Source: Lewinellaceae bacterium SD302 (GTDB taxonomy: Bacteria; Bacteroidota; Bacteroidia; Chitinophagales; Saprospiraceae). From it: a DNA stretch of 64,000 nucleotides. Below the pieces are notes generated by a model, which was given only the letters and a program-made list of their open reading frames with translations, made no database searches and was not told where the DNA came from. The DNA lies in NCBI GenBank assembly GCA_002591745.1, contig PDLQ01000026.1, forward strand, positions 1-64,000, written 5' to 3'. Positions 4,301 to 64,000 of the stretch are shown piece by piece. The position numbers were made by a program, and so were the translations under genes. Position 1 is the first letter of the stretch. Every line of letters starts with the position of its first letter.

Positions 4301-5584
4301 CTACTCCCGGTCAAATAACCAGGCCAGCAAACGCTTCTCCCCCACTACGATCTCCGCGTCCGCCCGCATGAAGGGGACCGGTTCAAGGCGGTTACCGGTG
4401 TTGGTGACCATCCCATTGGGCAGGCCGACCAGAATTGGAATGACATCTCCGCTGGGTATGGGCGATTTACTTTCTACCACCCCGGCCACGGAGCCGAATT
4501 CCTCAGAAGGGTAATTAAGGAATTTAATAATCACCCGATCACCCACTGCTACTTTGCCAGACCCCTGTAATGGTAAATCGATCCGGCCGAGTACACCCTG
4601 AGGATTAACGGGTAGTAGAGTGGCCAACTCATCGTCTGCGCTAAATCGTTGTTGCTCACGTACATCAATGTTTACCAATACAATGCCGTCTTTCGGGGCT
4701 ACCAGTAAATGGGTCTGTTTCCAGCTTTCCACTGCCTGGAGCAACAGATTATAGCGTTCCCGTAAATTTCGGGAGGCTACCTCCAACTCCGTTTGTTCCC
4801 CGGAACGAAATTGTTCTTTTTGACCATCCAGCAATTCTATATTGACGGTCAGGTCCCGGATGCGTCCCTCACTGGCAGCCAGTAAGCGTCGGGTTCGCAA
4901 ATCAGTCTCGGCTACCTCATCGAACTCAGACTGCTCGATGATGCCATTATCAAGTAGATTCTGTTGGCGAAGTAGATTGCGGGCCGTCATTACGACCTCC
5001 TTCATCAGTTGGTCCCGCACTGCTTTCTCACTCTTCATCGCCGTTTCCTGCTGACGAATCCGACGATTGATCTCCCGGTCACTCAGTCCAGACAGGCGAC
5101 GATCTCTGGCGACCAAGTACTTCTCCCTGGCTTCTACGAATTGATAAAGATCTTCCTGCACCTCCCCCAAAATCAGAGAATTGACTATATCCATTTCCGC
5201 CAGCATGGAGTCCGTTGGAGCGACGCCATTTTGCAACAGGGTGTTTTCCAGAAACTGTACGTGCTTGAAACGGGCCGGAGATTTAAAGACCATTAATGTA
5301 GCCCCCGCCACTACGCTGTCCTCCCGCTCTACCAGAATACGGTCCACGGTCAGGTTCCGGGGAGCCGTGAGACGACGGGCGGGTTCCACCGAAGTCAGGG
5401 TCAGTCGGCTGCTTACTACGTCCGGATAGCGATAGATGTAAGCTACCCACATAGTGACGACCAAGGCTACGAGTACCAGGATGTTTCCAAATCGCACCAG
5501 GTAACTGGGAGTGGTACCCAGTATCTCCGAGATGGCGTCGGAACGGGGTTGGGTTCTGGTATTGTTACTATCACTTGTAGGCAT
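4301..5584 (-). CDS. HlyD-family membrane fusion (adaptor) protein
   Basis: 427 residues from ATG 5584 (a GTG lies one codon upstream). There is a cytoplasmic N-terminus, one membrane helix at about residues 32-52 (ILVLVALVVTMWVAYIYR), then a periplasmic part. That part has a split lipoyl/biotinyl-like half (LTAPRNLTVDRILVEREDSV), a long alpha-helical hairpin (about 95-275) and a second barrel half (LLVAPKDGIVLVNIDV), the usual HlyD architecture. Such adaptors link an inner-membrane ABC exporter to an outer-membrane channel. The C39-type ABC gene upstream on the same strand is the obvious partner, but a 520-bp hairpin-rich spacer separates them and no TolC gene is visible. One copy of the TGCTACTTTG repeat lies in frame and encodes KVA in GSGKVAVGDR. 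Confidence 0.85.
   Translation of the reverse strand: MPTSDSNNTRTQPRSDAISEILGTTPSYLVRFGNILVLVALVVTMWVAYIYRYPDVVSSRLTLTSVEPARRLTAPRNLTVDRILVEREDSVVAGATLMVFKSPARFKHVQFLENTLLQNGVAPTDSMLAEMDIVNSLILGEVQEDLYQFVEAREKYLVARDRRLSGLSDREINRRIRQQETAMKSEKAVRDQLMKEVVMTARNLLRQQNLLDNGIIEQSEFDEVAETDLRTRRLLAASEGRIRDLTVNIELLDGQKEQFRSGEQTELEVASRNLRERYNLLLQAVESWKQTHLLVAPKDGIVLVNIDVREQQRFSADDELATLLPVNPQGVLGRIDLPLQGSGKVAVGDRVIIKFLNYPSEEFGSVAGVVESKSPIPSGDVIPILVGLPNGMVTNTGNRLEPVPFMRADAEIVVGEKRLLAWLFDRE
4547..4556 (+). repeat. TGCTACTTTG dispersed repeat, inside HlyD gene
   Basis: Exact core in the context cac-core-ccagac. Read on the minus strand it encodes GKVAV of the HlyD-like adaptor, in the same codon phase as the other intragenic copies. 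Confidence 0.85.
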
Positions 5585-5697
5585 CACAGGGGGATTAGAC
5601 TGCCGTTTTAGCTTGTTATGTTAGCATGCCGCTTTAACGTTCCACTCTAACTTGCCTCCGGCGGCTTCTTTTTTGCATTGCCAAAAAAAGAAGCAAA

Positions 5698-5749
5698 AAA
5701 GACGAACTCAGTAAACTCGCTTCGCTCAAACAGTACTGAGTTCGTCTTT
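5698..5749. repeat. Perfect 16-bp inverted repeat
   Basis: AAAGACGAACTCAGTA (5698-5713) pairs exactly with TACTGAGTTCGTCTTT (5734-5749) around a 20-nt loop. It is flanked by A-rich and T-rich sequence, so it could act as a bidirectional terminator or be a palindromic mobile repeat. The A/T-rich hairpin at 5664-5694 abuts it. Confidence 0.8.
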
Positions 5750-5920
5750 CTTCGTAGAGGAGCATTTTAGTTAAAGTGAAAGTTGCTCAAAGCGACGTAA
5801 TAAAACTTCTACATCAAATATTATGTCGCGTTTGGCATGCCGCTTTGCGCAGCTCCATTCTTCGCTAAAAGCATCAGTTCGGAGCAGTTGTTTTGAATAC
5901 TGTTTGAGCGAAGGGAGTTT

Positions 5921-5954
5921 ACCTTCGGTGATCGTCCCTACGGTCCTCGGAGTT
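5921..5954 (+). repeat. 34-bp dispersed repeat ACCT..GTT, copy A
   Basis: ACCTTCGGTGATCGTCCCTA followed by CGGTCCTCGGAGTT. It matches 30680-30713 at 32 of 34 positions. A 16-nt partial copy is at 30621-30636. It sits inside the loop of the 5890-5963 inverted repeat. Confidence 0.8.
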
Positions 5955-8303: not shown

Positions 8304-8738
8304 TTTTCGGTTAGACGTATTGAGGTTCGGGATGTCACCTAAAAAGCATCTGGTTTATAACCTGCTCTTGGGCTGTTGAATTTTCCGCCCGAAAACATCA
8401 CTTAGCTAAGCGGTATCTGGGGTTTAAAGACCCCTGGAAACTTAGCCGGTTCGGTTGCCGGACGGTTGCTCAACACCACGATAGCGGCGTTACAATCAGA
8501 ATAACTATTAAGTAGATGTCCCTTAAGGGTGTAAATATACGGAGAATTTATATTTGACGCATTTCCCGGATGGACGCAGCTAAACATGCCCATTCAGGGT
8601 ATAGTTGGTAATATGGCTGACTTCAAAGTAGCAGTGTTTTCGAATAAGCAGGCAATCCGCTTGCGTACCGTCAAGACCGTTATATCGCAAGCCGAACCTT
8701 TGAACCCATTATAGTCCACAGTCCATAAGTAACCGTTG
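8304..8738. other. Divergent spacer with one TGCTACTTTG repeat
   Basis: 435 bp between the minus-strand exporter and the plus-strand DM13 lipoprotein gene, so it should contain both promoters. A 63-codon minus-strand frame at 8402-8593 begins 30 nt downstream of the repeat. It has no recognisable domain or leader motif, and I do not call it. Confidence 0.55.
8624..8633 (-). repeat. TGCTACTTTG dispersed repeat, intergenic
   Basis: Complement reads cac-core-aagtcagcc. It lies in the divergent spacer upstream of the DM13 gene and points away from it. Confidence 0.85.
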
Positions 8739-9607: not shown

Positions 9608-9617
9608 TGCTACTTTG
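9608..9617 (+). repeat. TGCTACTTTG dispersed repeat supplying a TTG start codon
   Basis: Context cac-core-ttagtcaaaaaa. The last three bases of the core (TTG, 9615-9617) are the only usable start of the barrel gene, in the same phase as the intragenic copies. The frame is closed by TAA at 9600-9602. Confidence 0.85.
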
Positions 9618-14017: not shown

Positions 14018-15283
14018 ATGCGCCTCCTCCATACCTCAGACTGGCATCTCGGGCACCGACTTTACGACCGTGAACAACGCGAAGAACAGCAACTGGCCCT
14101 GGACTGGCTACTGAAAACTATTGAACGGGAGGCCATCGACCTGTTGATCGTGGCCGGTGACATTTTTGACACCAGCAACCCACCCAACTACGCCCGTCGG
14201 CAATACTATGATTTTCTGGGCCGGCTCCGGACGACCGGCTGTCGCCACGTAGTGATCGTTGGCGGCAACCATGATTCACCCTCCATGCTCAACGCCACCT
14301 CGGAGGTGCTACGGTATATTGATATCGTAGTTGTTGGTGCGGCCACCGAAGAGGTGCTGGACCAGATCATCGAATTACGTAATGCTGACGAACAGATAGA
14401 AGCCATCGTGGCGGCGGTACCTTTCTTACGCGACCGCGACATCCATTACAACCAGGCCGGGGAAGACGAGGCCAGCCGTACCAAGCGACTGCGTCAAAGC
14501 ATCCGTGAGCATTATCAAAAACTGGGCAAAGAAGTAGAAAAATACCGGACACGGAACATTCCTATCCTTACAACCGGCCACCTCTACGCCCACGGGGCCG
14601 AGGCCAGTGAAAAACGGAGTAAAATATATATCGGCAACCGCAGCAACATTGCCGCGGATGATTTTCCGGCTATTTTTGATTACGTGGCCCTGGGGCATAT
14701 TCATCGGGCACAAATTGTAGGCGGCAACAAAAAAGTTCGCTACTCCGGCAGTCTGATGCCCCTGGATTTTAGCGAAGTAGCCGATGATAAGATCGTCTAT
14801 ATTTTGGACTTCAACGTAGCAAAGTCAACAGCTGACGACAATGATGCATTCAGCATTCGGTCGATCGACGTACCGGTCTTTCGACGCCTCAAGAGAATTC
14901 ACGGCAGCCTGGAGGAAGTAGAGGAATCGCTGGAAAAATTTCTCGCTAAACGGGAACTGGACCTCGTTGACAATACTGAGGTCCTCAGACCGTGGCTGGA
15001 AATTAAAGTAGAGAGCAACGGGCCGATCCCGTTGCTGCACGATAAGCTGAAAGACTTGATTGGCGAACGGCCGGCGGACTTGTTGTCTACTCAATTGATT
15101 CGTAGTGGCGCCAATCGTAAAAGCGAACAAAGAGTATTACCAAAACTTGATGAACTGTCCGTCGAAGAAGTTTTCCGGCGGCTTTGTCTGGGTAGTGAAG
15201 GCGAAGAGCCAGCGGGCTTCCCCGAATTGCTGAATTCTTTCCGGGAGCTGGAAAACTGGCGACAAGAAAGCGAGGAAATATGA
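14018..15283 (+). CDS. sbcD: Exonuclease subunit SbcD
   Basis: 421 residues from ATG 14018; the frame stays open to 13862, but that part is repeat DNA. It is a Mre11/SbcD metallophosphatase with all five motifs in order: SDWHLGH, AGDIFD, GGNHDS, GHLYAHG and LGHIHR. The family forms a Mn-dependent 3'-5' dsDNA exonuclease/endonuclease with SbcC, cutting hairpins and protein-blocked ends. It overlaps sbcC by 4 nt (ATGA), so the two are translationally coupled. A DNA hairpin array immediately precedes a hairpin nuclease gene; whether this is more than coincidence is open. Confidence 0.95.
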   Translation: MRLLHTSDWHLGHRLYDREQREEQQLALDWLLKTIEREAIDLLIVAGDIFDTSNPPNYARRQYYDFLGRLRTTGCRHVVIVGGNHDSPSMLNATSEVLRYIDIVVVGAATEEVLDQIIELRNADEQIEAIVAAVPFLRDRDIHYNQAGEDEASRTKRLRQSIREHYQKLGKEVEKYRTRNIPILTTGHLYAHGAEASEKRSKIYIGNRSNIAADDFPAIFDYVALGHIHRAQIVGGNKKVRYSGSLMPLDFSEVADDKIVYILDFNVAKSTADDNDAFSIRSIDVPVFRRLKRIHGSLEEVEESLEKFLAKRELDLVDNTEVLRPWLEIKVESNGPIPLLHDKLKDLIGERPADLLSTQLIRSGANRKSEQRVLPKLDELSVEEVFRRLCLGSEGEEPAGFPELLNSFRELENWRQESEEI

Positions 15284-18200
15284 AAATTCTGGTTCTTCGA
15301 CTTCGTAACCTCAATTCTCTGCGCGGCGATCACGAGATTCGCTTCGACGAGTCACCGCTGGCCGACACCGGCCTTTTTGCCATTGTGGGAGAAACGGGTG
15401 CTGGTAAAACAACTTTACTTGACGCCATCACCCTGGCCCTTTACGGACAGATTGACCGGGAACAGGAAAGTGTAGGTGGCGGGGGCCGTATTATGAGCTA
15501 CGGTACCGCCGAGTGTTTTGCCGAACTCGAATTTTCGACAGCACAGGGGCGTTATCTGGCGCACTGGGAACGCAATAAAGCCCGTGGAAAAGTAGACGGC
15601 AAATTACAAGCCGCCAAACACTGGCTCTCTGAATGGGAAGAAGATACCGGAGCCTGGAAGTTTCTTGCCGAAAAGATATCTGAAACCAAAGTGGTCGTTC
15701 CCGAAATCACCGGGCTGGATTACGGAAGATTTACGCGCTCGGTCATGCTTCCGCAAGGAGCTTTTGCCCGTTTCCTGCTAGCTGACGAAAATGAGCGGGC
15801 CGACCTGCTGGAACAAATCACCGGAACGGGTATCTATCGGGAGATTAGTATCGCTGCCTTCGAACGCCATAAACTGGCCGTAAAAGATCACGAGCGCATC
15901 GGTGAGCAGCTCAGCAATCTGTCTTTGCTGACCGAAACCCAGCGAGAAGTACTGACCGATGAGCTAGAGGTCAAACGAGTTGAATTGGCCGAAATTGAAA
16001 GTAGGTTGAAAGAAATCAGTCCCAGCCTGAAACTTTACCAGCGTCAGCGGGAGATTGGCCAGCAAAAGGAACAGTTGACCCAACGGTTAAATGCTTTGAA
16101 AGCGAGCAAACAGGCTCGCCAAACCGAAAGGGAGAAGCTGCGCCGCCACGAAGAACTCGGTCCTGTCGCAGATCAATTGCGCGATCACGATAAAGCCCTG
16201 GCTCAACTGGACCGCCGCCGGCTAGAACTGACCGAACTGAACGGCCGGTTGGAACGGTTGCGAAAAGATGAAAAGCAACTAAGTACCGCAGCTGAAGTTG
16301 CCGCTACCAACCTGAAGGATTTCGAAAATAAACTGCCAGAAAGGGAAGCCAAGGTTGACGAAGCCGTAAAGTTGGAAGCAGAGCTTAAGAGTTCGGAGAA
16401 AGAACTCGGTCAGTTGATCTTAACCCAGCAACAATACCAGTCTGAAAGCAAAAGAATCAAAACGGAGCTAGCTGCACTCGATCAGCAACTGGCCAAAGTA
16501 AAAACGGAACAAAGCGAACTCCGCAGTCTACTCGCCGAACTCTATCCAGACCGTGATCATAGTGATCGGCTCGTGAGCTTTTCCATCGTGATCACAGCAG
16601 ACACTGCTACTTTGCAGTCACAAAAAGCGAACCTGGAAAAACGTATAAGGGCCCGGGAATTTGCTAAAAAAATTGCCGATCTAAAGGAAGCCGTAGACAC
16701 GGCCGCCAATGCCCTGGCTACCGGAGAAAAAGAATTGATCTACCGGCAAAAAGAGCAAAAGAAGTCTGAGAAAACTTTGAAACTTCAACGGGAACTACTG
16801 GATCAGCTCCGGCAAAATGCCAGCCTCGCAGCCTTGAAGGACAGTGTCGAACCCGGCGAACCCTGTCCGGTTTGCGGTGCCCTGGACCACCCTGCCCTGG
16901 AACATTGGTCGCCACCCTCGACTGAATTACTGGAAGCGGAAACCAATAAATTGGCCGATACCGAAGCCAAATTGCGGGAAGCTCAGCGCGGAGAACAGCA
17001 AGCAAGCATTGATCTCGCTGCTCACCGGCAGAAGCATTATTTACAGGGTCTGCAATTGAAGGAATTACGGAAGGAATGGGCTATCGAATTCAGCGAAATA
17101 TCAGAACTTGAAGCGCTGGAGTGGTCAGAAAATGAATTGAGCAATGAACTAGAAGGTCAAGCGTTACGCGAGCAGAAACTTAAAACAGCTAACGACCGTC
17201 TGAACCAGCAACTGGCACGGGGTGGAACTGATAAAATTACCGAAGCCAAACAGAAACTGACCGAGCGCGACGAAGGGTTACAGCAGAAGCAAACTGACAT
17301 ATCGCCGAAAATTGAAGCGGTCCATACGCAAATTGAGCAATATTCCTTACGACTCACTACCCTGCTAAAGGGCCTCAACGTAGCCGAAGCAAGAGCCGGT
17401 TTGAAAAAAAGGGAGAAAAGTTGCCGGGATAAGGCCGCACTGGCGCATCAACAACTTGTTGATCATCAAACTACGATCAAGACTAATGAGAGCAGTAAGA
17501 AAACATTGGATGAGGAGATTAAATACCTAAATAAGGAATTAGCTGATCTAGCTGAAAAAATCGCGGCATTTCTGGGTGATGAACGTCCGACGGCCGTATC
17601 ATCCGCAAAAAAAGAACTGCTTTCTATTGAAATGGCGACTAGTCTGCGCCGTGAGTTCAATAGTCTGGATCAGGAACTACACAGCAAGCAACAGCAATAT
17701 GCCAAGTTGATCGAAGAGGAAGAAGCCGCCGCGGTAATCGTAGCGGATTTACCGCCTGAGCAATCACTACGCGAACAAGAAAGCGAACTGAGTGAGCAAC
17801 GTAAAGCCAGCTACCAGACCACTGGTGCGTTGCAGCAGCAATTAACTACCGACGAAAAAAACCGCCAGGCCGCCGGCAACCTCACTACGTCCCTGATTAC
17901 CGCCGAGCAGGAACGTCGCCGTTGGGCTGCCCTGGACGAACTGATCGGATCGGCCAAAGGCGACCGATTCAGCCGCTTCGCCCAGAGCCTTACGCTAGAC
18001 CGATTGGTAGCGGCCGCTAATGAGCAATTGGCCGATTTACTGGATGGCCGTTACCGCATTGACCGGAAACCATCTGTCTACCGGGGCCGTAATCCTTTAC
18101 ATTTGGGCCTGGAGATCATCGATACTTATCAGGCTGATAATCGCAGAGATACCCAGACGCTGAGTGGTGGTGAATCTTTCCTGGTCAGCTTGTCACTGGC

Positions 18201-21452: not shown

Positions 21453-21462
21453 CAAAGTAGCA
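21453..21462 (-). repeat. TGCTACTTTG dispersed repeat, before esterase gene
   Basis: Complement reads gcat-core-ttagccacaag. It lies 36 nt upstream of the esterase ATG and forms a diverging pair with the copy at 21562. Confidence 0.85.
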
Positions 21463-21561: not shown

Positions 21562-21571
21562 TGCTACTTTG
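21562..21571 (+). repeat. TGCTACTTTG dispersed repeat, before DUF72 gene
   Basis: Context cac-core-aagccaaaacaac, ending 20 nt before the ATG at 21591. It points at the gene, mirror-symmetric to the copy at 21453. Confidence 0.85.
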
Positions 21572-43989: not shown

Positions 43990-46310
43990 TTGCCCGATGA
44001 TTTACGCTCCTTCCGCTTTTTGAGTTCAATCTCGTGACTTCTGTTTGCCTTTTGCTCCTTGCTTTTGTAGGTAACGATCTTTACTACGGCTTCGTGTTGG
44101 CCACTTGGGTCCAGGGCTTTCAACCGATCCTTGTCCCTGATCACTTCCAACGACTCTATCCCTTTTTTCTTCAACGCCTTGAAGTTGAGATTTTCGGTGA
44201 TCTTTCCGTCGACGTAGAACAAGACATTATCGGTGCCGAACATATCTTCCACTCCGTTGTCTTCCGGTTTTTTTGCCAGACCGGGCAGTAATTCCTCAGC
44301 GGAGTATCCGGCTTTGAGTTGCACCTTGACAATTGTGGTGATGCTTTCGTTATACCCCCTCATTTCCGCGCTACGCTTTTCAACGTTTACCGATGCAATT
44401 GCTTCGGCCGGTAGCCGCTCAATGGTATTGGGGTCGTAGGAGTAAATCTTCTCGTTGATGATGTAAAGATGGTTGTCATCGGGCTGCTCCGCCAGTTCAA
44501 GAGTCTGGGGCTCCTCTGCCTCTCCTGCCAGGGAACGCCCCGGTTTCAGTTTGATATCAATCATTCCCTTGTAAGACTTCCCATAATCACTCAGGCGGGC
44601 CGGGTCTTTAATCACGTTGATGGTTGCGATATCACCGGGAGGAATCCGTTGCAAAATCGATTGATCCTCGAACGGCTGATCATTTATAATGACCAGAATT
44701 GTATCGTTGAAGCTGATTGCGGCAGTAACATTCTCCGTAGCCTCATCTCCTGTTTTGGCGGTCTCCATTACAATGGCCCCGTCGTAGTCGAGTCCGGAGC
44801 GGCGTATGGCACGTTTTGTAATGGGGTGATCTCTTTCGTAAACCGTAGCTCTTTCGGCGGTAAGTGTGACCAGTGAGCCACTTCCGGGCTCCTCGTAGAT
44901 CGGTACTTCATTTATGAACATGGCCAAATTTTGCTGTCCGGGTTCTTCCACAGTCGTCGGTTCAGCCAGGGAAACGCCTTCGTAGATGCTGCTTTCTCCG
45001 GGATCAAGCTTCAGTTCGTTTACGTTTACTCCATCACTGAAGTAACGACGAATGCTGGTATAATTGGTCCCTTCTTCGGCGTTGATCCGGAGCAGTTCTT
45101 CATCGTCACAATCACAGGCTTCCGAAAAGAGATTATTCCCGAACAAATGAGCGAAATCGTCAAAAGCGGCGTAGCGATGATTATTAAAAAAGTAAACGAT
45201 CTCATCAGCCTGGTCTCCCGGGATGGCCGCCCGCAATTTTTCGATCGCCTTTTCCCGAAAAGACAGCGTCGGATCTTCGGGCGATTTATCCGTTTGCTCA
45301 ACAAGCTCTTCCATTACCTGAGCTTCGGCTTTCTGAGCGGTCAGTACGGCGGTCAGCAACAACGGCAACAAGAGAACGGGTAACAATAGCCAGCGCTGGT
45401 TTTGCCGGGGTGCTTGCGAAGCAAACAGTCGCTGGATGCGTTGGGTAAATTGGGATTTTCCCTGGGCTTGCACGATAAATCGGTTTTTGTGGGTTACTGA
45501 GAAACGAGCCACCCTGAGCAGAGAGTTGGCGTACAACCGGGGTTCAACCCGGCCGATGACCAGATCGTCACAGGCGTATTCGCGCTCGCGGTCGATCTGA
45601 CGGCTGAGCCAGTGAACGACGGGGTGATAAAAAAAAAGCTGTAACAAGGCACTTTGCAGAGCGTTCCAAAGGTGATCTCGGCGAACGACGTGGGCCAATT
45701 CGTGGAGCAGGATTGCCTCCATTTCAGCCGGAGCAAGTTGATTGACCAAACCGATCGGCAATACGATAAAGGGGCGAATTATTCCTGCCGTCAGGGCGCT
45801 GCCAACCTGGCCCGACAGCCGTAAGACCGTAGAAGCAGGTATCCGAAACTGGGCCCGAAGCCGGTTGAAAGTGTTCCGCAGCTCTTCCGGTACGGCCAGG
45901 CTTTTACGCCGGACGGCCCCCAGCCGGAAGAGATCCAGGGCGGATTTACAGAGCAGCGCCAGCAGCACCAGTAAATAGGCGGCACTCAGTAGTTGGGGGA
46001 CGGTTGGCGTGGACGTCAGCTTTGCTACTTTGTCAGCCATAATACCTTCAACTATTTCCGGAGTATTGGCGGTCATGATTTGTCCTGGCAAAGTAGCAGT
46101 GTCGATTGGGTAGAACCAGAAAATAGTGCTGCCGAAAACGAACGGACAGAGCATTATAGCCACGAGATAGACCCAATGCCTTTTGCTGGCACTGGGGCAA
46201 AAACCGGCGAAGTAGTGCGCAAGGCCCACCAACAAAATGAACTGCCAAAGGCTGTGTAGCAAGGCCGCGGATAAGGCCGTGAATACGGGGTGAGCGAGCC
46301 AATCGATCAT
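43986..46310 (-). CDS. M56-family sensor protease (BlaR1-like) with plug-like repeats
   Basis: 774 residues. The N-terminal part has four to five membrane helices with the zinc site ILLHELAHVVRRDHLWN (about 208) and the EREYACDDLV segment, as in BlaR1/MecR1. The C-terminal part, normally a penicillin-binding sensor, instead has about four short related modules. Each has (F/I)(I/V)(N/D)(E/D/G)..., then I..I.V.(K/R), then V.I.LK-G (e.g. IDIKLKPG, VKVQLKAG), like the TonB-receptor plug motif. It overlaps blaI by 4 nt. Two TGCTACTTTG repeats in inverted orientation (46023, 46089) encode TATL and KVA in one extracytoplasmic loop. By family analogy it would cleave the repressor on sensing an envelope signal. 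Confidence 0.85.
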   Translation of the reverse strand: MIDWLAHPVFTALSAALLHSLWQFILLVGLAHYFAGFCPSASKRHWVYLVAIMLCPFVFGSTIFWFYPIDTATLPGQIMTANTPEIVEGIMADKVAKLTSTPTVPQLLSAAYLLVLLALLCKSALDLFRLGAVRRKSLAVPEELRNTFNRLRAQFRIPASTVLRLSGQVGSALTAGIIRPFIVLPIGLVNQLAPAEMEAILLHELAHVVRRDHLWNALQSALLQLFFYHPVVHWLSRQIDREREYACDDLVIGRVEPRLYANSLLRVARFSVTHKNRFIVQAQGKSQFTQRIQRLFASQAPRQNQRWLLLPVLLLPLLLTAVLTAQKAEAQVMEELVEQTDKSPEDPTLSFREKAIEKLRAAIPGDQADEIVYFFNNHRYAAFDDFAHLFGNNLFSEACDCDDEELLRINAEEGTNYTSIRRYFSDGVNVNELKLDPGESSIYEGVSLAEPTTVEEPGQQNLAMFINEVPIYEEPGSGSLVTLTAERATVYERDHPITKRAIRRSGLDYDGAIVMETAKTGDEATENVTAAISFNDTILVIINDQPFEDQSILQRIPPGDIATINVIKDPARLSDYGKSYKGMIDIKLKPGRSLAGEAEEPQTLELAEQPDDNHLYIINEKIYSYDPNTIERLPAEAIASVNVEKRSAEMRGYNESITTIVKVQLKAGYSAEELLPGLAKKPEDNGVEDMFGTDNVLFYVDGKITENLNFKALKKKGIESLEVIRDKDRLKALDPSGQHEAVVKIVTYKSKEQKANRSHEIELKKRKERKSSGN
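46023..46032 (+). repeat. TGCTACTTTG dispersed repeat, inside M56 gene (pair member 1)
   Basis: Followed by tcagccataata. On the coding strand it encodes DKVAKL. It is inverted relative to 46089, 66 bp away. Confidence 0.85.
46089..46098 (-). repeat. TGCTACTTTG dispersed repeat, inside M56 gene (pair member 2)
   Basis: Complement reads gacac-core-ccaggac, encoding DTATLPG. It forms a close inverted pair with 46023. Confidence 0.85.
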
Positions 46311-53301: not shown

Positions 53302-53311
53302 CAAAGTAGCA
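53302..53311 (-). repeat. TGCTACTTTG dispersed repeat, before purB
   Basis: Complement reads gcttt-core-aagtcaaaata. It ends 19 nt before the TTG start of purB. Confidence 0.85.
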
Positions 53312-53364: not shown

Positions 53365-53374
53365 TGCTACTTTG
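53365..53374 (+). repeat. TGCTACTTTG dispersed repeat, intergenic
   Basis: Context taccc-core-ctagccacaata. Inverted partner of 53302, pointing at the TonB receptor 270 bp away. Confidence 0.85.
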
Positions 53375-53643: not shown

Positions 53644-55956
53644 ATGCGCAAGCCACTATTAGGCCTGGTGGGCCTCCTGTTTTCCACGCTCTGTTTCGCC
53701 CAGGACGCTACCCTATTCGGTACGGTTATGGATGGGGAAACGGGAGAGTTACTCATTGGCGCAACCATATTCGAGGCAACCACCCAGCGTGGTACCACCA
53801 CCGATCTTGACGGACGCTATGAACTGTCGCTGCCCGCCGGAAAGTACAACGTTACGCTTTCTTACCTGGGCTATGAATCCATTAATCAGCAGCTAACGCT
53901 TACCGCCGGTCAGCGCAGGGAACTGGATTGGACCATCGGCAGCGCCGCCACCATCCTGGAAGTGACCACCGTCACCAGCGGCCGCTACGAAAAGCCCCTG
54001 GGTGAGGTTACGGTCTCGCTGGAAGTCCTTAAACCGGCCTTGCTGGAAAACTCCAACCAGGCCAGTCTGGACGGTGTCCTGGAAAAAGTGCCCGGCGTTA
54101 ACATTACCGACGGCCAGCCCAGCATCCGCGGCGGAGCGGGTTACAGCTACGGAGCCGGCAGCCGGGTGCTGCTGTTGATCGACGACATTCCCATTCTGCA
54201 GTCCGACGCCGGTTTTCCCAACTGGGATGATGTGCCGATCGAGAATATCGAACAGATCGAAGTGGTAAAGGGTGCCGCTTCGGCCCTCTACGGTTCTTCG
54301 GCCATGAACGGTATTGTGAATGTACGAACCGGTTTCGCCCGCGCTGAACCGGAAACTTCTTTTTCCACCTTTGGTAAACTTTACCTGACACCGGGCAACG
54401 AAAAATCCGCTTGGTGGCAGGTGGACAGCACCAGCGCCACACCCTACGAGACGGGTACCTCCATCCGTCACGCCCGCAAGATGGGCAAGCTGGATATGGT
54501 CCTGAGCGGCTATTACTATAACCAGGGCAGTTACGAGCGCAAGAATTTCGATAAATACGGCCGTTTCACCACCAGTTTCCGTTACCGTTTCAGCGACCGA
54601 CTGAGCGTGCAACTCAATAGCAACTACAATAAAGGCAGTAACCGTGGCTATTTCTTTTGGGGCGGGTTGGACAGTCTGCTCTACGTTGGCGCCCCGAATA
54701 CCGAAAGCATCGGCCGACCGATTCGTTACAACCTGGACCCTTCCGTAACCTACTTCGCGGAGAATGGTGACCGCCATCGATTGCTCGGCCGCTATTACAG
54801 TGTCAACAACCGCAATAATGCCAACCGCAGCAATTCCTCCGATCTCTTCTACGGAGAATACCAATACCAGAAGCGCCTGGAAGATAGCGGATTGGTCCTC
54901 ACCGGCGGCCTGGTTACCCAGGGCACCTCGGTACAAGCGGAGCTTTACGGCGACACTACCTACACCAGTCGCAATTACGCCGGCTATCTTCAGGTGGAGA
55001 AAAAATTCTGGGATAAACTCAACGTCTCCTTCGGGGCCCGCTACGAATACAATCAACTGAACAGCCCGGAGATCGTTAGTGGAGACACCATTCCCGACGG
55101 CATTACCCGGGAGAGCAAACCGGTATTCCGGGTGGGCATGAATTATCGGTTGGCCCCCTATACCTTCCTGCGCGCCAGTTGGGGACAGGGTTATCGTTAC
55201 CCGACCATCGCCGAGAAATTCATCCGTACCGATTTCGGCGGCGTGCTGGTTTCCCCGAACCCTCAACTGGAGAGTGAAACTGGTTGGACGGCAGAGTTGG
55301 GAATAAAGCAGGGCTTCAAAGTAGCAGGGCTTTCCGGATTCGCCGACTTCAGTATTTTCCAAAGTCGTTACCAGGATATGCTGGAGTTCAGTTTCCTCAA
55401 TCTTTTCGTTGATGGATTCCAAAGTCTCAACGTCGGCGACACCGAGATCAACGGTCTGGAGATAAGCATTGGCGGCCAGGGTGAGTTATTCGGCGGCAAA
55501 ACCTCGCTGATCGGTGGCTACACCTACATCCTGCCACGCTTCGCTCAGTGGGACACGACGGCAATTGAGAGCGGGGAACTCGGTACCCAGGCTCAGCGGA
55601 ATTACGCACTTGGCACCAGTGAGGAAAATATTCTGAAGTACCGCAACCAGCACAGCACCAAACTGGATATCGAGACCCAATGGGGCCGCTTCAGCCTCGG
55701 TCTGGCCGGAGTGTATAACAGTCGTATCGATAACATCGATCTGGTCTTCCAGACTTTCGTGGTTCCGGGCCTGGCGGATTTCCGGGAAACCGAGACGGGT
55801 AACCTGGTTACTAATCTACGGATGGCTTATCGATTTAGCGATGTCTTCAAACTTTCCTTCTTGGTGGATAATGCCCTGAATGAGGTGTATGCGCCACGGC
55901 CGGGCATTTTAGGAGCACCGCGGAGTGTGGCGTTGCGGTTGGATGCAAAGTGGTAG
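53644..55956 (+). CDS. TonB-dependent outer-membrane receptor
   Basis: 770 residues. The signal peptide is MRKPLLGLVGLLFSTLCFAQ. A carboxypeptidase-regulatory-like domain follows (TLFGTVMDGETGELLIGATI; YNVTLSYLGYESI), then a plug with VLEKVPGVNITDGQPSIRGG, LLIDDIPILQSDAG and EVVKGAASALYGSSAMNGIV, and a barrel ending LRLDAKW. The plug resembles the BtuB/vitamin-siderophore class more than SusC. The substrate is unknown. A TGCTACTTTG repeat in frame (55317) encodes FKVAG in a barrel strand or loop. Confidence 0.93.
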   Translation: MRKPLLGLVGLLFSTLCFAQDATLFGTVMDGETGELLIGATIFEATTQRGTTTDLDGRYELSLPAGKYNVTLSYLGYESINQQLTLTAGQRRELDWTIGSAATILEVTTVTSGRYEKPLGEVTVSLEVLKPALLENSNQASLDGVLEKVPGVNITDGQPSIRGGAGYSYGAGSRVLLLIDDIPILQSDAGFPNWDDVPIENIEQIEVVKGAASALYGSSAMNGIVNVRTGFARAEPETSFSTFGKLYLTPGNEKSAWWQVDSTSATPYETGTSIRHARKMGKLDMVLSGYYYNQGSYERKNFDKYGRFTTSFRYRFSDRLSVQLNSNYNKGSNRGYFFWGGLDSLLYVGAPNTESIGRPIRYNLDPSVTYFAENGDRHRLLGRYYSVNNRNNANRSNSSDLFYGEYQYQKRLEDSGLVLTGGLVTQGTSVQAELYGDTTYTSRNYAGYLQVEKKFWDKLNVSFGARYEYNQLNSPEIVSGDTIPDGITRESKPVFRVGMNYRLAPYTFLRASWGQGYRYPTIAEKFIRTDFGGVLVSPNPQLESETGWTAELGIKQGFKVAGLSGFADFSIFQSRYQDMLEFSFLNLFVDGFQSLNVGDTEINGLEISIGGQGELFGGKTSLIGGYTYILPRFAQWDTTAIESGELGTQAQRNYALGTSEENILKYRNQHSTKLDIETQWGRFSLGLAGVYNSRIDNIDLVFQTFVVPGLADFRETETGNLVTNLRMAYRFSDVFKLSFLVDNALNEVYAPRPGILGAPRSVALRLDAKW
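55317..55326 (-). repeat. TGCTACTTTG dispersed repeat, inside TonB receptor gene
   Basis: Plus strand reads gggcttcaaagtagcagggc and encodes GFKVAGL. Confidence 0.85.
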
Positions 55957-56158: not shown

Positions 56159-57697
56159 ATGAAACTACAGTTTATCATCCTCTTAATGGTATTGGCGCTT
56201 CCTACTCAAGCACAACACCTATTCTCCGATCTAGATTACGGCGTCTACCCCGTCGGTTTCACCCACTACGTAGCCATTGACAGCACCCGTCAATACCAAC
56301 GCATCCATGATTTCACCGACAGCAAGATCTACCGCCCCATCCCCATCAGCGTATGGTACCCGGCCAAAGAGCAGACAGCTGATCAGCGATTAACGGTCGA
56401 TGATTACCTGCGCATCGTCGCCGAAGAAGCAGAGTGGGAAAATTTACCCGATGATCTCATGCTAGGCTGGTTCGGCTACGGGACGGATTCAGTTTACCAG
56501 ACCCGGCGAAAGCTAAAAACAAAAGCGGTCCGCAGTCTACCTTACATCGACGACAGTCACCCGCTGATCGTTTACTCCCCCGGCTACGAGCGCTCTTCGG
56601 TGGAAAACTTTGCGCTTAGTGAGTACCTGGCGAGCCATGGCTACGTCGTCATCTCTAGCCCCAGCAGGGGAACCGGCCAGCAATTTCTGGACGCTGGTAC
56701 ATTCCGCGATATTGAAACCCAAACCCGTGACTTTGAATTTCTGGCCAAAGAAGTTCGTAGCCGTTACGCGGCGGGACAACTGCGTAGCGTTACGGCGCTG
56801 GGCTACAGTTTCGGTGGCCTGGCCGGAGTTTACGCTGCTACCAGAAATGATTACGTCAACGCCGTCATTAGTCTGGACGGAGCAATCAAGTACCAATACG
56901 AAAAATTGAAGCAATCCCCTTATTTCGATGCGGTTGACTTCAAAGTAGCAATGGTCCATATTTCTCAGAAAGACATCCCGACGGAGTTACTGGACGCGGA
57001 GGATCTTCCGCCAAGCATCAATACCGAGTTCGAATTCTTTGATGAGATCGGCAAAGTACACGCTTACAAAATACGAATGGACAGCCTCAGCCACAGCTAT
57101 TTTACCAGCTTGGGCGTACTGTTTCAGCCACGTGATCCCCGGCAAGACCCGGCGTGGCGGACGATCAGGACCGGTTACCAAACACTTTGCCGATTGTCCC
57201 TAAAATCTCTAAACGCCGTACTCACTCAGCCTTCGGCTCTTTATGAGCAAATCGAGTCTGGCCATTTGGCCAATCCGGAAGACTTTACTTTGCTGGAGTA
57301 TAAACAGGCCGCTATTGACAATACACCGACTATGAATTTTCGCGAATGGGTGGAACTCATGCGAGCTTACAATTACCAGGACCTTGCCGGTTTGAACTCG
57401 GAGTACAGTCATTTCAGGGATATGCCAACCTCTTTGTATTCACCCAAAGAGTGGGAACTCAACACATTGGCCCTTAAACTTGCCTTTGATCCGGAAACCT
57501 ACGAGGCGGGTATCCGGGTAGCGGAGTTTGCCACGCTGGCCTACCCCGAATCGGCGAATCTTTACGACACTTTGGGCGAAATTTATTTATTAGATAATCG
57601 AAAAGAGAAGGCTATTCTAAATTTCAAAAAATCGTTAGATATCTATCCCGAAAATGGCAATGCCATCAAGCGGCTAAAAGAACTAAAGGTTGACTGA
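56159..57697 (+). CDS. Secreted alpha/beta hydrolase with C-terminal TPR
   Basis: 512 residues from ATG 56159, giving signal peptide MKLQFIILLMVLALPTQAQ; the frame extends 15 codons further but without a signal. The hydrolase core has LIVYSPGYERSSVENF, nucleophile elbow ALGYSFGGLAGVYA and AVISLDGAIKYQYE. It resembles the dienelactone-hydrolase/PAF-acetylhydrolase-like group. The C-terminus carries one or two TPR units (LYDTLGEIYLLDNRKEKAIL). One TGCTACTTTG repeat is in frame (56941, DFKVAMVH). Substrate unknown. Confidence 0.8.
   Translation: MKLQFIILLMVLALPTQAQHLFSDLDYGVYPVGFTHYVAIDSTRQYQRIHDFTDSKIYRPIPISVWYPAKEQTADQRLTVDDYLRIVAEEAEWENLPDDLMLGWFGYGTDSVYQTRRKLKTKAVRSLPYIDDSHPLIVYSPGYERSSVENFALSEYLASHGYVVISSPSRGTGQQFLDAGTFRDIETQTRDFEFLAKEVRSRYAAGQLRSVTALGYSFGGLAGVYAATRNDYVNAVISLDGAIKYQYEKLKQSPYFDAVDFKVAMVHISQKDIPTELLDAEDLPPSINTEFEFFDEIGKVHAYKIRMDSLSHSYFTSLGVLFQPRDPRQDPAWRTIRTGYQTLCRLSLKSLNAVLTQPSALYEQIESGHLANPEDFTLLEYKQAAIDNTPTMNFREWVELMRAYNYQDLAGLNSEYSHFRDMPTSLYSPKEWELNTLALKLAFDPETYEAGIRVAEFATLAYPESANLYDTLGEIYLLDNRKEKAILNFKKSLDIYPENGNAIKRLKELKVD
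56941..56950 (-). repeat. TGCTACTTTG dispersed repeat, inside hydrolase gene
   Basis: Plus strand reads gttgacttcaaagtagcaat and encodes VDFKVAM. Confidence 0.85.
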
Positions 57698-57698
57698 T

Positions 57699-59187: not shown

Positions 59188-59211
59188 GCCGCAAAATTTT
59201 AAATTAAACAA

Positions 59212-59667: not shown

Positions 59668-62577
59668 TTACCCCACCACGATATTCACCATCCGCCCCGG
59701 TACAACGATCACCTTACGGACAGTTTTGCCGTCCAGATAAGGCGCGGTTTGCTCGTTGGCCATGACCATTTCTTCCACTGCTTTTTTGTCCGCGTCGGCG
59801 GGCAGATCGAGGGTAAACCGGGTTTTGCCGTTGAAGGCCACCGGGTACGTTTTGCTGTCTTCCACCAACCACTTATCGTCGCTGGCTGGCCATCCGCTGA
59901 GGTGGACACTTGTGTCGTGACCTAGTAACTGCCACAGTTCGTCGGTCATTGCCGGTGCGAAAGGTGCCAGCAATTGAACCATTGGTTCCAGCACGGAGCG
60001 TTTATTGCATTTCAGCTTGATGAGATCGTTGGTAGCCACCATGAAGGCACTGACACAAGTGTTGTGGGCCAGCTCGTCAATATCGGCTGTTACCTTCTTG
60101 ATCAGGGTATGGAGAACTTTCATTTCCTCTTTGGTCACCTCGTCGTTGCTGACATTCCAATCGTGGTCTTCGGTGTGGAACATGGACCAGAAACGGCGCA
60201 GAAAGCGGAATACCCCATCGATACCACTGGTACTCCAGGGTTTGCCCTGCTCTACCGGGCCAAGGAACATTTCGTACATGCGGAAGCAGTCCGCCCCGTA
60301 GCGATCGCAGATGTCGTCGGGATTAACGGCATTGTACTTGCGCTTGGACATCTTGCCCTGCTCAAAACTCAACTCGATGTAGTCACTTCCCTCTTCATCC
60401 TGACGCCAGGCAAAGGTCTCGCCCTGCTGCAGGATCGTACGGAAGTAGCTGGCGTCCGGGTGATCGGCTTGCTGGGCATCTTCCACCTGACTGCGGTAGA
60501 TGCGGAAGGTCTGATTCTTATCTACGGTCACCTCAGTGGTATAGCGCAGCGGGTTTAGACGGCGTCCGGTAGCTTCGTCCAGGATGATCCGACCGGAGCC
60601 AATACCGTCGATACTGATCTCGTCACCTTCGGCCAGGTCACTGCTCACCCAAAGTTGGTGGCGCTGTCCGTCTTCGGTAACCATGCCCGCCAGGTGAATG
60701 TAGCAGATCGGCCCACCGATCATCCCCTGGTTAACCAGTTTTTTATAAGGCTCGCTGGTGGGCACTTTACCCAGGTCGTACAGAAACTTATGCCACAAAC
60801 GACTGTAGAGCAAGTGAGCTACGGCGTGCTCAGCGCCACCGACGTACAGGTCCACGTCCTGCCAGTAATCCATCGCTTCCTCGGAGGCGAAAGTCTCTCC
60901 GTTCTGCGGGTCCATGTAGCGCAAGTAATACCAAGCGGAACCGGCGGTGGCAGGCATGGTATCGGTCTCGCGGGTCATTCCGGGAGCGGGATGCAACCAA
61001 TCCTTGGCGCGGGCCAGGGGACTTTCACCGGAAATGGGGCGGAAGTCTTCCATCGGCGGCAGGCTTACGGGCAGGTCATTGAGGTCGATCAGGTGTGGTA
61101 CGCCGTCTTCATCGTAAATGATTGGGAAAGGCTCGCCCCAGTAACGCTGGCGGCTGAAAACGAGATCACGAATCCGGAAGTTTACCTGCTGCTTACCACG
61201 CCCCAGTTCTTCCAGTTTTTTGGTAGCGGCTTTGATGGCTTCGGGTACTTCCATACCGTTCAGGAAGTCGGAATTGATGAGCTTGCCCACTTTGTCCTTC
61301 AAAGTAGCACCGGGGTAATCGGATTTGTCAACGACATCGATAATGTCCAATCCGAAGTGTTCGGCGAAACGCTTGTCGCGGTCGTCGTCGCTCGGCACGG
61401 CCATGATGGCACCAGTACCGTAATCTTTCAGTACGTATTCGGCGATGTAGATCGGAGCCCGGGCACCACTCAGCGGATTAATGCAATAGGAGCCGGTAAA
61501 AGCTCCGCTGACTTTATTCTCCGCCTGGCGATCCAGTTCACTGCGGGTTCCGACGTATTCCAGGTATTGATCGATCTCCTCCTTCTGATCGGCAGTGGTG
61601 AGTTGTTCCACCAAATCGTGTTCGGGGGCCAGTACCATGAAAGTGGTCCCGAAAATGGTATCGGGCCGGGTAGTGAACACTTCCAGCTTTTCGTCGTGGC
61701 CTTCAATGTCGAAGAAAGCCTGGGCGCCGATGGACTTACCGATCCAGTTGGATTGCTGGGCTTTCAGTCCTTCGCTGAAACCGACGGTTTGCAAGTCGTT
61801 CAGCAGGCGATCGGCGTAAGCGGTGATGCGCAGGCTCCATTGCTCCATCGGGCGCTGAACCACGGGGAAATTGCCCCGCTCGCTACGGCCGTCCTTGATC
61901 TGATCGTTGGCCAAAACCGTACCCAATTCCTCACACCAGTTCACGTAGCTGGTGGAACGGTAGGCCAGACGGTAATTCATCAGGGTATCTGACTGTTCCC
62001 TGGCGCTCATGGCGTTCCAGTCGGCGGCACTGAATTCAATTTCTTCGCCGGCGGCGGCGTTTACAGCACTTGAACCTTTAGCAGCAAAAGCAGCACGTAA
62101 ATCATTGACGGACTTAGGTTTATCAGCATCCAGATCATAGTAATGCTCGAACAACAGACCGAAGATGTACTGGGTCCACTTATAGTACTTAGGATCGCTG
62201 GTATTGACTTCCCGTTCCCAATCGAAACTCAGTGCCAGGCGGTGCATTTGCTCGCGGTAGCGATCGGTATTGTCCTTGGTTGAAACGGTCGGGTGAACGC
62301 CGCTCTGGATGGCGTACTGCTCCGCCGGCAGGCCGAAGGCGTCAAAACCCATCGGGTGTAATACATTATGACCGGTCTGTCGTTTGAAACGGGCGTAAAT
62401 ATCCGAGGCGATATAGCCCAACGGGTGCCCCACGTGCAGTCCCGATCCCGATGGATAAGGAAACATATCGAGTACGTAACACTTCGGCTTGGAAGGGTCG
62501 GTACCGGTCTTGTACGTATTGTTTGTACGCCAGACCTGCTGCCATTTTTTATCGAGTTTGCGGGGATCGTATTTCAT
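59668..62577 (-). CDS. leuS: Leucyl-tRNA synthetase
   Basis: 969 residues, class I synthetase. The HIGH-type motif is in FPYPSGSGLHVGHPLGY. The CP1 editing domain (TRPDTIFGTTFMVLAPEHD, GTGAIMAVPSDDDRD) and KMSKS-type loop QGKMSKRKYNAVNP (KMSKR) are present, with the anticodon-binding domain at the C-terminus. The insert rich in Ala near residues 160-200 is seen in Bacteroidota enzymes. A dispersed repeat at 61300 encodes GATLKDK in the editing region. A TATCTTTG -7 box lies 21 nt before the ATG. Confidence 0.96.
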   Translation of the reverse strand: MKYDPRKLDKKWQQVWRTNNTYKTGTDPSKPKCYVLDMFPYPSGSGLHVGHPLGYIASDIYARFKRQTGHNVLHPMGFDAFGLPAEQYAIQSGVHPTVSTKDNTDRYREQMHRLALSFDWEREVNTSDPKYYKWTQYIFGLLFEHYYDLDADKPKSVNDLRAAFAAKGSSAVNAAAGEEIEFSAADWNAMSAREQSDTLMNYRLAYRSTSYVNWCEELGTVLANDQIKDGRSERGNFPVVQRPMEQWSLRITAYADRLLNDLQTVGFSEGLKAQQSNWIGKSIGAQAFFDIEGHDEKLEVFTTRPDTIFGTTFMVLAPEHDLVEQLTTADQKEEIDQYLEYVGTRSELDRQAENKVSGAFTGSYCINPLSGARAPIYIAEYVLKDYGTGAIMAVPSDDDRDKRFAEHFGLDIIDVVDKSDYPGATLKDKVGKLINSDFLNGMEVPEAIKAATKKLEELGRGKQQVNFRIRDLVFSRQRYWGEPFPIIYDEDGVPHLIDLNDLPVSLPPMEDFRPISGESPLARAKDWLHPAPGMTRETDTMPATAGSAWYYLRYMDPQNGETFASEEAMDYWQDVDLYVGGAEHAVAHLLYSRLWHKFLYDLGKVPTSEPYKKLVNQGMIGGPICYIHLAGMVTEDGQRHQLWVSSDLAEGDEISIDGIGSGRIILDEATGRRLNPLRYTTEVTVDKNQTFRIYRSQVEDAQQADHPDASYFRTILQQGETFAWRQDEEGSDYIELSFEQGKMSKRKYNAVNPDDICDRYGADCFRMYEMFLGPVEQGKPWSTSGIDGVFRFLRRFWSMFHTEDHDWNVSNDEVTKEEMKVLHTLIKKVTADIDELAHNTCVSAFMVATNDLIKLKCNKRSVLEPMVQLLAPFAPAMTDELWQLLGHDTSVHLSGWPASDDKWLVEDSKTYPVAFNGKTRFTLDLPADADKKAVEEMVMANEQTAPYLDGKTVRKVIVVPGRMVNIVVG
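61300..61309 (-). repeat. TGCTACTTTG dispersed repeat, inside leuS
   Basis: Complement reads ccggg-core-aaggacaaag, encoding PGATLKDK. Its right flank deviates from AGYCA, so it may be an older or chance copy. Confidence 0.75.
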
Positions 62578-62597
62578 CGGTAGATTTTAAGAAGCGG

Positions 62598-62605
62598 CAA
62601 AGATA
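62598..62605 (-). promoter_or_regulatory. -7 box TATCTTTG before leuS
   Basis: Exact TAnnTTTG on the minus strand, 20 nt from the leuS ATG. No -33 TTG at the expected distance. Confidence 0.5.
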
Positions 62606-62752
62606 GGAATTCGAGGTTAGAGGGGGAACCACTAAGGGCACAAAGGAACACAAAGAGGCAGCAGGTAGATGTTTTTCTGAGACTAAAAACCTGAAAACTA
62701 TGCGTGTCTCTTAGAGCTTGGTATGCTTGGTGGTAAAATCTACCTTACATCC

Positions 62753-64000
62753 ATGAATTTAATAGCCGACCTTTGGCCGCTGGCATTGCTCGTCTTACTT
62801 ACTACCCTACTCACAGAATGGGCCACTAAAGCAGGAAAGTTCCCTTACTGGATCGGACGGAAGATATTGCATTTCGTGGCGGTGGGCAGTTGTGCATTAG
62901 CGGTAAGAATGACTGATGATCTCAACAGTCTCTTCTGGTTGATCTTGCCAGTCTGGTTACTGCTCTTTTACCTGATCGCTACCAATAAACTGATGCGGGA
63001 TGAGCGGGGGCGACCCGCCTGGGGAATCGTTTGGTTTCCTTTTGCCTATTTGATTTTACTTTGGTTCTATGCTCAAGAGCCGCGGTGGATTTACCTATCA
63101 ATGCTTATCCTCGCGATTTCTGACCCATTGGCGACCATATTCGGCAAACTCTTTGGCAAGTTGAAGTATTCACTTAGCGGAGAGCCAAAATCGTTGACTG
63201 GCAATGCAGCTTTTTCGATAAGTTGCCTGGTCATTCTCAGCTACTCTGTACCTTATCATTTTGAGTACGGATTTATTCATGATTTTGGTCTATTCCTTTA
63301 TCTAATCGTCATTTTGCTTACCGTTGCCGAGGCATTGGGTTCTTACGGAAGCGACAACCTACATATTCCGCTATTTGCTATTTGGCTATTATCTGACCCT
63401 CAAGACCTCACTATGCTATCGCCCGTTATTGTTGTTTTAATGCTGGCCATCCCCTTCATCTGGCTGACCGTCCGTAGTCAAAAGCTCACCCTGGGAGCAG
63501 CCATCACTGCTACTTTGTTAGCCATAATCGTGACCTTTAAATCAGGAAGCTATTTGCCATTGTTGCCATTGATCTTCTTCTTTGGCTCCAGCCTACTCCT
63601 GGAGAAAATATTCCCGACCAAAGTGCTATCGGACAGCAAGGACCGTCGATCACGCGACATCATGCAGGTAATGGCCAATGGCGGCGTGTACGGAGCGATC
63701 TTCCTTTTTTTACCAGAGCTGACGCGAGAGTTCATAGGGGTTTCTCAGACTGGCAAAGTAGCAGTGTCACTGTACGAAGCCCAGCGGGAGAGTGTCGTTC
63801 TGGGTCGTTTTCTTTTGGGAATGGGCCTGGTTTCCCTCGCCGTAGCTACCGCGGATACCTGGGCTTCCACAATTGGGAAGCGCTTCGCGAAAACGGCTTT
63901 TGATCCTTTCCGCTGGCAAAAAGTTCCGGCCGGGCTCAGTGGTGGTATTTCTCTGCCCGGTACCCTGGCCGCACTATTGGGTAGCGTCGGCATCGCCAGT
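62753..64000 (+). CDS. Phytol/dolichol-kinase-like and DUF92 fusion membrane protein (partial at right edge)
   Basis: 416 codons from ATG 62753, open to the window end. The N-terminal half has about six to seven helices and resembles VTE5/SEC59-type CDP-alcohol kinases (WIGRKILHFVAVGSCALAVR; LILAISDPLATIFGKLFGK; SLTGNAAFSISC). The C-terminal half is DUF92-like (RRSRDIMQVMANGGVYGAIF; AVATADTWASTIGKRF; GLSGGISLPGTLAALLG). In plants VTE5 and VTE6, separate proteins, phosphorylate phytol in two steps; here both types are in one chain. Isoprenoid alcohol salvage is inferred. Two inverted TGCTACTTTG repeats lie in frame (63508, 63754). Confidence 0.8.
   Translation, partial: MNLIADLWPLALLVLLTTLLTEWATKAGKFPYWIGRKILHFVAVGSCALAVRMTDDLNSLFWLILPVWLLLFYLIATNKLMRDERGRPAWGIVWFPFAYLILLWFYAQEPRWIYLSMLILAISDPLATIFGKLFGKLKYSLSGEPKSLTGNAAFSISCLVILSYSVPYHFEYGFIHDFGLFLYLIVILLTVAEALGSYGSDNLHIPLFAIWLLSDPQDLTMLSPVIVVLMLAIPFIWLTVRSQKLTLGAAITATLLAIIVTFKSGSYLPLLPLIFFFGSSLLLEKIFPTKVLSDSKDRRSRDIMQVMANGGVYGAIFLFLPELTREFIGVSQTGKVAVSLYEAQRESVVLGRFLLGMGLVSLAVATADTWASTIGKRFAKTAFDPFRWQKVPAGLSGGISLPGTLAALLGSVGIAS
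63508..63517 (+). repeat. TGCTACTTTG dispersed repeat, inside DUF92 fusion gene
   Basis: Context atcac-core-ttagccataatcg, encoding ITATLLAI in a membrane helix. Confidence 0.85.
63754..63763 (-). repeat. TGCTACTTTG dispersed repeat, inside DUF92 fusion gene
   Basis: Plus strand reads agactggcaaagtagcagtg, encoding TGKVAVS. Inverted partner of 63508. Confidence 0.85.

Follow-up and report, generated by a model that had tools for sequence, protein, structure and literature searches.

Uptake sequences belong, as far as the consulted parts of the literature go, to the Pasteurellaceae and the Neisseriaceae, and in both families the uptake is pilus based. In Haemophilus, the copies show no orientation bias and the uptake itself is independent of orientation, as stated in the available part of PMC1939737. 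Within the phylum Bacteroidota, competition for transformation is seen in R. columbina with its own DNA, and with foreign DNA only when that is in excess, and the k-mer table of the same work, in the part available, contains only A-rich repeated words, the function of which is called open (PMC7965970). The subject of this work is a short dispersed motif of Lewinellaceae bacterium SD302, also from Bacteroidota, present in a stretch of 64,000 nucleotides (contig PDLQ01000026.1 of assembly GCA_002591745.1, positions 1 to 64,000 of the forward strand), which is called the window throughout. The best explanation of this motif, with the ten-base core TGCTACTTTG, is that it is probably an uptake sequence similar to the DNA uptake sequences (DUS) or the uptake signal sequences (USS), used in dialects. 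This reading, held with good confidence, is based on the comparison of sequences.

The dispersed motif and its dialects

The initial annotation of the window reported 19 copies of the core word, nine on the plus and ten on the minus strand, and every coordinate and strand proved exact. The chance expectation of about 0.12 copies that was given with them is in line with 100 dinucleotide shuffles of the window, in which the mean number of copies is 0.10 and the maximum is 1. The SD302 genome of 5,478,864 bases contains 1,344 exact copies (675 forward and 669 reverse), while the reversed word occurs 16 times (9 and 7). The refuting condition named by the initial annotation, a genome-wide count near chance, thus clearly fails.

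The full motif has a length of about 30 base pairs (bp), reads AACAYTGCTACTTTGHHRGYCAAAAAA or, on the other strand, TTTTTTGGCTAACAAAGTAGCAATG, carries 30.9 bits of information, and does not differ between coding and intergenic copies. The 118 copies found in 464 kb conserve the stretch rrCAY-TGCTACTTTG-HHRGYC-AAAAAA, with C at position -3 in 96% and T or C at position -1 in 97% of the copies. The right flank consists of HH, R, G, C/T and C/A, followed by an A-rich tract to about +21, and the same flanks surround 68 coding and 88 intergenic copies. The flanking preferences described in the initial annotation are therefore real and extend further than was noticed. A weight matrix derived from the exact copies in 604 kb finds 195 sites in this sequence and 3 in its reverse at the threshold used. 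The core is sharp: the 464 kb hold 118 perfect and 58 single-mismatch copies, about 26 of the latter being expected by chance according to our own arithmetic, and 35 of the 58 are altered at core positions 1 and 7. In 13 small contigs of the genome (L103 to L115, 0.75 to 1.7 kb each, 17.9 kb in total), 0 copies were found where about 4 are expected; these contigs may be repeats or mobile DNA.

The comparison with relatives was made in a sample of 120 genomes, which consists of SD302, 20 congeners (Neolewinella/Lewinella) and 99 genomes from outside the genus. A count in relatives had been suggested together with the first description of the word. The word itself is at background in the 20 congeners (1 to 12 copies each), yet related words are abundant there. 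Outside the genus, the SD302 word reaches at most 55 copies, in a 7.6-Mb genome with a control count of 25. Samples of 20 kb from the congeners yielded other dispersed words. The first of them, CGCAGGTGCA, is commoner than its reversed control in all 20 congeners, with 28 to 1,193 copies per whole genome. The three highest counts are 1,193 (591 and 602 on the two strands), 1,134 (581 and 553) and 1,098 (556 and 542), with controls of 4, 2 and 7, and the lowest are 61 against a control of 15 in genome G004 and 28 against 15 in genome G001. The same word occurs 11 times in SD302, with a control of 11, and at most 43 times in any of the 99 genomes outside the genus. The second word, CGGAGCGCAGG, is present in G001 in 510 copies (254 and 256, control 1), with 210 copies in G007 and 120 in G015.

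The motif of two congeners studied in depth, ttttt.gGGCGCGGnCGCAGGTGCAAaGaaaGgTt, carries 35.8 bits and has 117 sites in 377 kb, with 0 in the reversed sequence. The motifs of the genus share one architecture, which consists of a T-tract, GGC and a core ending in GCAA. The ungapped alignment of the SD302 and congener matrices scores 4.10, above the maximum of 3.64 in 200 column shuffles, and the gapped alignment scores 5.32, above the maximum of 4.07 in 60 column shuffles. Another reading of the motif is a donation or packaging signal, a site of cutting or loading for the export of DNA by a gene transfer agent, a secretion system or vesicles, which would spread by the transfer it promotes. Directional loading would produce both drive and a spacing of sites on each strand, as described below. 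The architecture and the dialects fit uptake as well, and a donation signal appears very unlikely.

Several words from other genera of the family were considered and set aside. The word GGCACGCCCAA precedes A/T-rich sequence and occurs 70 times in G148 (control 0) and 27 times in G237, a genome of that same genus. As a further uptake word (locus L177 of G148) it was rejected, since 70 copies genome-wide are too few, and it was assigned to a smaller dispersed repeat. The words from G239 belong to a local repeat, and the word from G123 is part of a longer repeat. The 20-kb sample of G123 (L170) holds a GC-rich interspersed repeat three times, at 13145, 15116 and 19641, in a genome of 38% GC.

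Origin, placement and strand lattice of the copies

The copies could have arisen in place or could have been inserted. The second case corresponds to a mobile repeat, such as a miniature inverted-repeat transposable element (MITE) or a repetitive extragenic palindromic (REP) element, which spreads by copying. The comparison of orthologues with and without a copy, also proposed by the initial annotation, was possible in part, because 6 of the 68 coding copies are comparable with relatives. Four of the six are gap-free, one of these at 25% identity. To judge by these six, the SD302 copies may be substitutions rather than insertions; the FAD-oxidase sites described below point the same way, and one of the six points against it. 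The USS were found not to be insertions by the same kind of test with many more usable sites, according to the available part of PMC1626085. The more than 1,000 near-identical copies, some of them in inverted pairs, and the coincidence of one coding copy with a 7-residue alignment gap speak for a mobile repeat, but the flanks are graded and non-clonal, without sharp ends, four of the six comparable copies have a gap-free homologue, and two dialect words occupy one homologous site in the congeners. A mobile repeat is thus extremely improbable. Among the candidates that the initial annotation left unranked, the mobile repeat loses ground on these grounds, and the uptake-like motif is the one favoured by the evidence.

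The gene of a FAD-linked oxidase provides an example of how the copies vary between relatives. The SD302 protein is 47 to 56% identical to those of the congeners, by segment and with three distant partial matches left out. The window copy at 38972 sits in a variable stretch of this gene, and 29 of 40 alignments spanning it are gap-free, with a gap in the relative in 5 (some genomes are counted repeatedly). Elsewhere in the gene, the same alignment columns hold CGCAGGTGC in 11 of 20 congeners and a variant word in 2 more. The first word is found there also in, for example, N. persica, N. lacunae and N. antarctica, and the variant in Lewinella sp. IMCC34191 and N. xylanilytica. The loop with the congener words varies in length, and three motif-free congeners align there without a gap. 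At the places homologous to SD302 coding copies, a congener dialect was found in 1 case of the 5 looked at. In this case (L200 of G014, homologous to position C1:210750 of SD302, genome G000), a G014 dialect motif with a score of 32 lies near the place of the SD302 copy; in an alignment of 25% identity, this proximity could be due to chance.

The placement relative to genes was determined with two gene callers, a codon-based one written for the purpose (158 copies) and a cruder one (118 copies). The motif is present in coding and non-coding DNA and enriched in the latter. The codon-based caller places 68 of the 158 copies in coding sequence, 38 of them antisense and 30 sense, and 90 between genes. 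Two of these are without a neighbour on one side, and the other 88 divide into 30 in divergent, 58 in tandem and 0 in convergent gaps, the convergent gaps making up 10.5 of 94.9 kb of total gap length. The copies in tandem gaps face the gene start in 35 cases and face away from it in 23. The cruder caller assigns 64 of its 118 copies to coding sequence, 48 to intergenic sequence and 6 to boundaries, with 10.5% of the bases being intergenic, and places 1 of 46 classified intergenic copies in a convergent gap. Of its 64 coding copies, 48 fall in two of the six frames.

Such enrichment in divergent and tandem gaps, with nearly none in convergent ones, would suit a promoter element, and the core resembles TAnnTTTG, the -7 box of Bacteroidota promoters. 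The position and orientation of the copies relative to genes lead to the rejection of this candidate: a large share lies inside genes on either strand, the tandem-gap copies face both ways, and the upstream side has no strong second box but only weak preferences for T at -13 and -19. A promoter is accordingly a most improbable identity of the motif.

The orientation of neighbouring copies shows a further regularity. Pair counts in SD302 and in the congeners G005 and G014 were compared with 1,000 random placements. Neighbouring sites less than 5 kb apart are in opposite rather than the same orientation in a ratio of 126 to 27 in SD302, 40 to 10 in G005 and 37 to 8 in G014, and above 5 kb there is no bias (18 to 20, 6 to 3 and 6 to 5, respectively). 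Pairs of the same orientation closer than 2 kb number 8 in SD302, against 60.9 expected and 40 in the lowest simulation, and 4 in the two congeners together, against 35.3 expected and 19 in the lowest simulation. Opposite pairs within the same distance are near expectation (73 against 62.1 in SD302, 31 against 36.0 in the two congeners). The coefficient of variation of the spacing on one strand is 0.43 to 0.56, where random placement gives about 1. Each strand holds its own even lattice of copies. The layout of genes is an unlikely cause of this lattice, because coding sites separated by 500 to 2,000 bp form 16 opposite pairs and 1 pair of the same orientation. The inverted pairs pointed out in the initial annotation are in excess in SD302 at distances below 300 bp (30 against 9.4 expected), with no excess in the two congeners (8 against 5.4).

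In the simplest reading of the lattice, the effect of a copy depends on the way it points or on its strand, and a further copy pointing the same way contributes nothing within about 2 to 3 kb. The lattice suggests directional or strand-specific import. A direction-dependent site of another kind would also explain the independent even spacing on each strand, namely a Chi-like signal, read in one direction by a nuclease of the AddAB/RecBCD type and needed at intervals for each direction in the repair of double-strand breaks. Known Chi sites have 5 to 8 bp and are usually skewed by replichore. The motifs of SD302 and its congeners have about 30 bp, 31 to 36 bits and a T-tract, are enriched between genes, differ among species of one genus, and show no strand skew in the genome or in the stretches examined. 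A Chi-like signal is for these reasons unlikely. A motif directed by replication, for which the initial annotation had proposed a test of orientation bias, is improbable because the two orientations are about equal genome-wide and in each long stretch examined.

The even spacing and the presence in coding and non-coding DNA could also be attributed to a chromosome-organising site, bound by a nucleoid protein or a loop anchor. Beyond 300 bp, the opposite orientations are near chance, which gives no rule of loop pairing and leaves loop pairing unsupported. More than 1,000 functional sites that change between species would be hard to picture without drive, and a chromosome-organising role is judged quite unlikely.

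Sites within the window

The weight matrix finds 22 sites in the window, three of them inexact (14812, 38105 and 51112). Outside of the genes, the copy at 8624..8633 (minus) lies in a divergent gap and the copy at 9608..9617 (plus), with near-consensus flanks, in a tandem gap. The copy at 21453..21462 (minus), in a divergent gap, forms an inverted pair with the one at 21562..21571 (plus), 19 bp upstream of a DUF72 gene. A further inverted pair is made of 26060..26069 (plus) and 26229..26238 (minus), both in a tandem gap. Another divergent gap is shared by 53302..53311 (minus), 19 bp upstream of the adenylosuccinate lyase gene, and 53365..53374 (plus) in the opposite orientation.

Within genes, the copy at 16605..16614 (plus) belongs to an SbcC/Rad50-like gene (15280-18438, plus). 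The copy at 35980..35989 (minus), translated by eye, encodes IATLLAI in a stretch that resembles a signal peptide and is N-terminal in a TonB-dependent receptor (33676-36021, minus), and the one at 38972..38981 (plus) encodes STATLSAKKL in the FAD-linked oxidase (37821-40895, plus). The gene of an M56 peptidase (43986-46310, minus) contains an inverted pair, with the antisense copy at 46023..46032 (plus) and its partner at 46089..46098 (minus). Antisense copies are also found at 4547..4556 (plus), with weak flanks and a matrix score of 17.2, in a gene of HlyD-type secretion (4301-5587, minus), at 55317..55326 (minus) in a gene of a TonB-dependent receptor (53644-55953, plus), and at 56941..56950 (minus) in a hydrolase-like gene (56114-57694, plus). 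The match at 61300..61309 (minus), in the leucyl-tRNA synthetase gene (59668-62577, minus), has the exact core with poor flanks and a score of 14.0, and may be a chance occurrence. At the right side of the window, the stretch with the copy at 63508..63517 (plus), also translated by eye, could encode AAITATLLAIIVTF, and this copy forms an inverted pair with 63754..63763 (minus).

The inexact sites include two near-copies. The first, TGCTACGTTG at 14812..14821 (minus), has full flanks and a score of 25.6 and is antisense in a coding frame. The second, GGCTACTTTG at 38105..38114 (minus), also with flanks, scores 22.7 and is antisense in the FAD-oxidase gene. The third site, at 51112 (plus), is weak, with a score of 15.5. 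The window also contains repeats of other kinds. At its left end (1-1086), a unit of about 285 bp is repeated in tandem with 85 to 94% identity, and intergenic clusters of short GAGTC-type repeats, partly inverted repeats, are found at 10514-10623 and 26141-26219.

Candidate machinery and comparison with known systems

In the proposed mechanism, a putative DNA receptor on the cell surface would recognise the tag of about 30 bp, and DNA of the own kind would be preferred in natural transformation. Uptake and recombination would be more frequent for tagged fragments, drive would carry the tags born by mutation into coding and non-coding sequence alike, and related species would use diverged dialects of one motif. 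The motif would be read by a DNA-import machine, and the import would start at the tag and extend over some kb, either to one side of it or on one strand. A second nearby tag of the same orientation would add nothing, because the import would be directional from each tag. Such a machine would presumably not be a retractile type IV pilus. The narrower proposal, which combines sequence-directed import without a retractile type IV pilus, strand or direction set by the tag over a few kb, two lattices and a change of dialect within the genus, is given an even chance.

The search for candidate parts covered 21 genomes of the genus. ComEC is present in 21 of them and DprA in 20, the genome without a match being 55% complete. 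In Riemerella anatipestifer, transformation needs ComEC, DprA, ComF, RecA and proteins unlike the known machinery; these include a DUF5689 protein and a consecutively numbered protein with a CarboxypepD domain, predicted in the outer membrane (PMC8459023, in the part available). The same domain types, the likeness being one of domain type, lie side by side in SD302, where a protein of 933 residues (L188:5673-8474) adjoins one of 695 residues with three DUF5689 domains (L188:8514-10601). The first has weak CarboxypepD and plug matches under the Pfam cut-offs. The second matches an NCBIfam lipoprotein family below threshold (119.5 bits against a cut-off of 475) and has no match among solved structures. 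DUF5689 is found in 195 of 248 genomes of the family, including SD302, which is the only one of the 21 genomes of the genus to hold it; the partner protein is also found in 1 of 21, at E 1e-20. As a receptor common to the genus, DUF5689 was rejected, and 19 of the family genomes that hold it, sampled at 20 kb, had no such word. The outer-membrane receptor-like protein of 933 residues and its triple-DUF5689 neighbour may matter to the SD302 dialect, as candidate parts only.

Several observations weigh against the reading as an uptake sequence. In known systems, close inverted pairs act as terminators at the ends of genes; SD302 has the excess of inverted pairs below 300 bp, but its copies avoid convergent gaps (0 of 88 with one caller, 1 of 46 with the other), unlike the USS terminators. 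Among the six comparable coding copies, the 7-residue gap lies at the copy in its single relative and another copy has a gap in SD302, and 62 of the 68 are without a usable comparison. No such word appeared in 20 kb sampled from each of 19 genomes, which represent 17 other genera of the family, and the best lead outside the genus has only 70 copies genome-wide. ComEC and DprA occur widely and are no proof of competence, and the DUF5689 pair is absent, at the thresholds used, from the 20 congeners with other dialects, so that it cannot be a receptor common to the genus. The known DUS and USS machineries are pilus based, according to the available parts of the sources, and the profile TIGR01420 of the PilT-family ATPase, which has a match in 13 of 14 control genomes, has none in the 21 genomes at E 1e-3, in a search limited to this ATPase. 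Since it was not found there, any import machine would be unlike the one in Haemophilus and Neisseria.

The closest known systems include the USS of the Pasteurellaceae, such as Haemophilus influenzae (Hin and Apl types), as described in the available parts of PMC1626085, PMC1939737 and PMC7811141. These sequences have about 1,470 copies, a sharp core with a one-sided AT tract, coding and intergenic positions, no preferred orientation overall, different dialects in one family and an origin other than insertion, and the exclusion of same-orientation neighbours seen in SD302 finds no mention for USS in those parts. Further differences are the word and the phylum, the lack of a PilT-family match, the nearly empty convergent gaps and the density, which is about one copy per 4 kb in SD302 and about one per kb for USS. 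The DUS of the Neisseriaceae, with a 10-bp core and about 1,900 copies, are comparable as well, although, as far as the available sources tell, they have no flanking motif, unlike the SD302 motif. They reportedly occur in species dialects, as in the genus of SD302, and are said to be bound by the pilin ComP, whereas SD302 has no match to the PilT-family ATPase.

The literature searched, with preprints and most subscription journals outside its scope, reports no uptake sequence for Bacteroidetes, Bacteroidota, Lewinella or Neolewinella. To the extent of this search, Bacteroidota would be a new phylum for a system of this kind, and the import machinery must differ at least in part from the known ones. 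Since the genus has many species with different dialects, a comparison of gene content between the dialects could be used to look for the receptor. The strand lattice gives a quantitative indication of the course of the import. If the reading as an uptake sequence is true, the recognition of self-DNA would have evolved more than once, with machinery other than that of the known systems.

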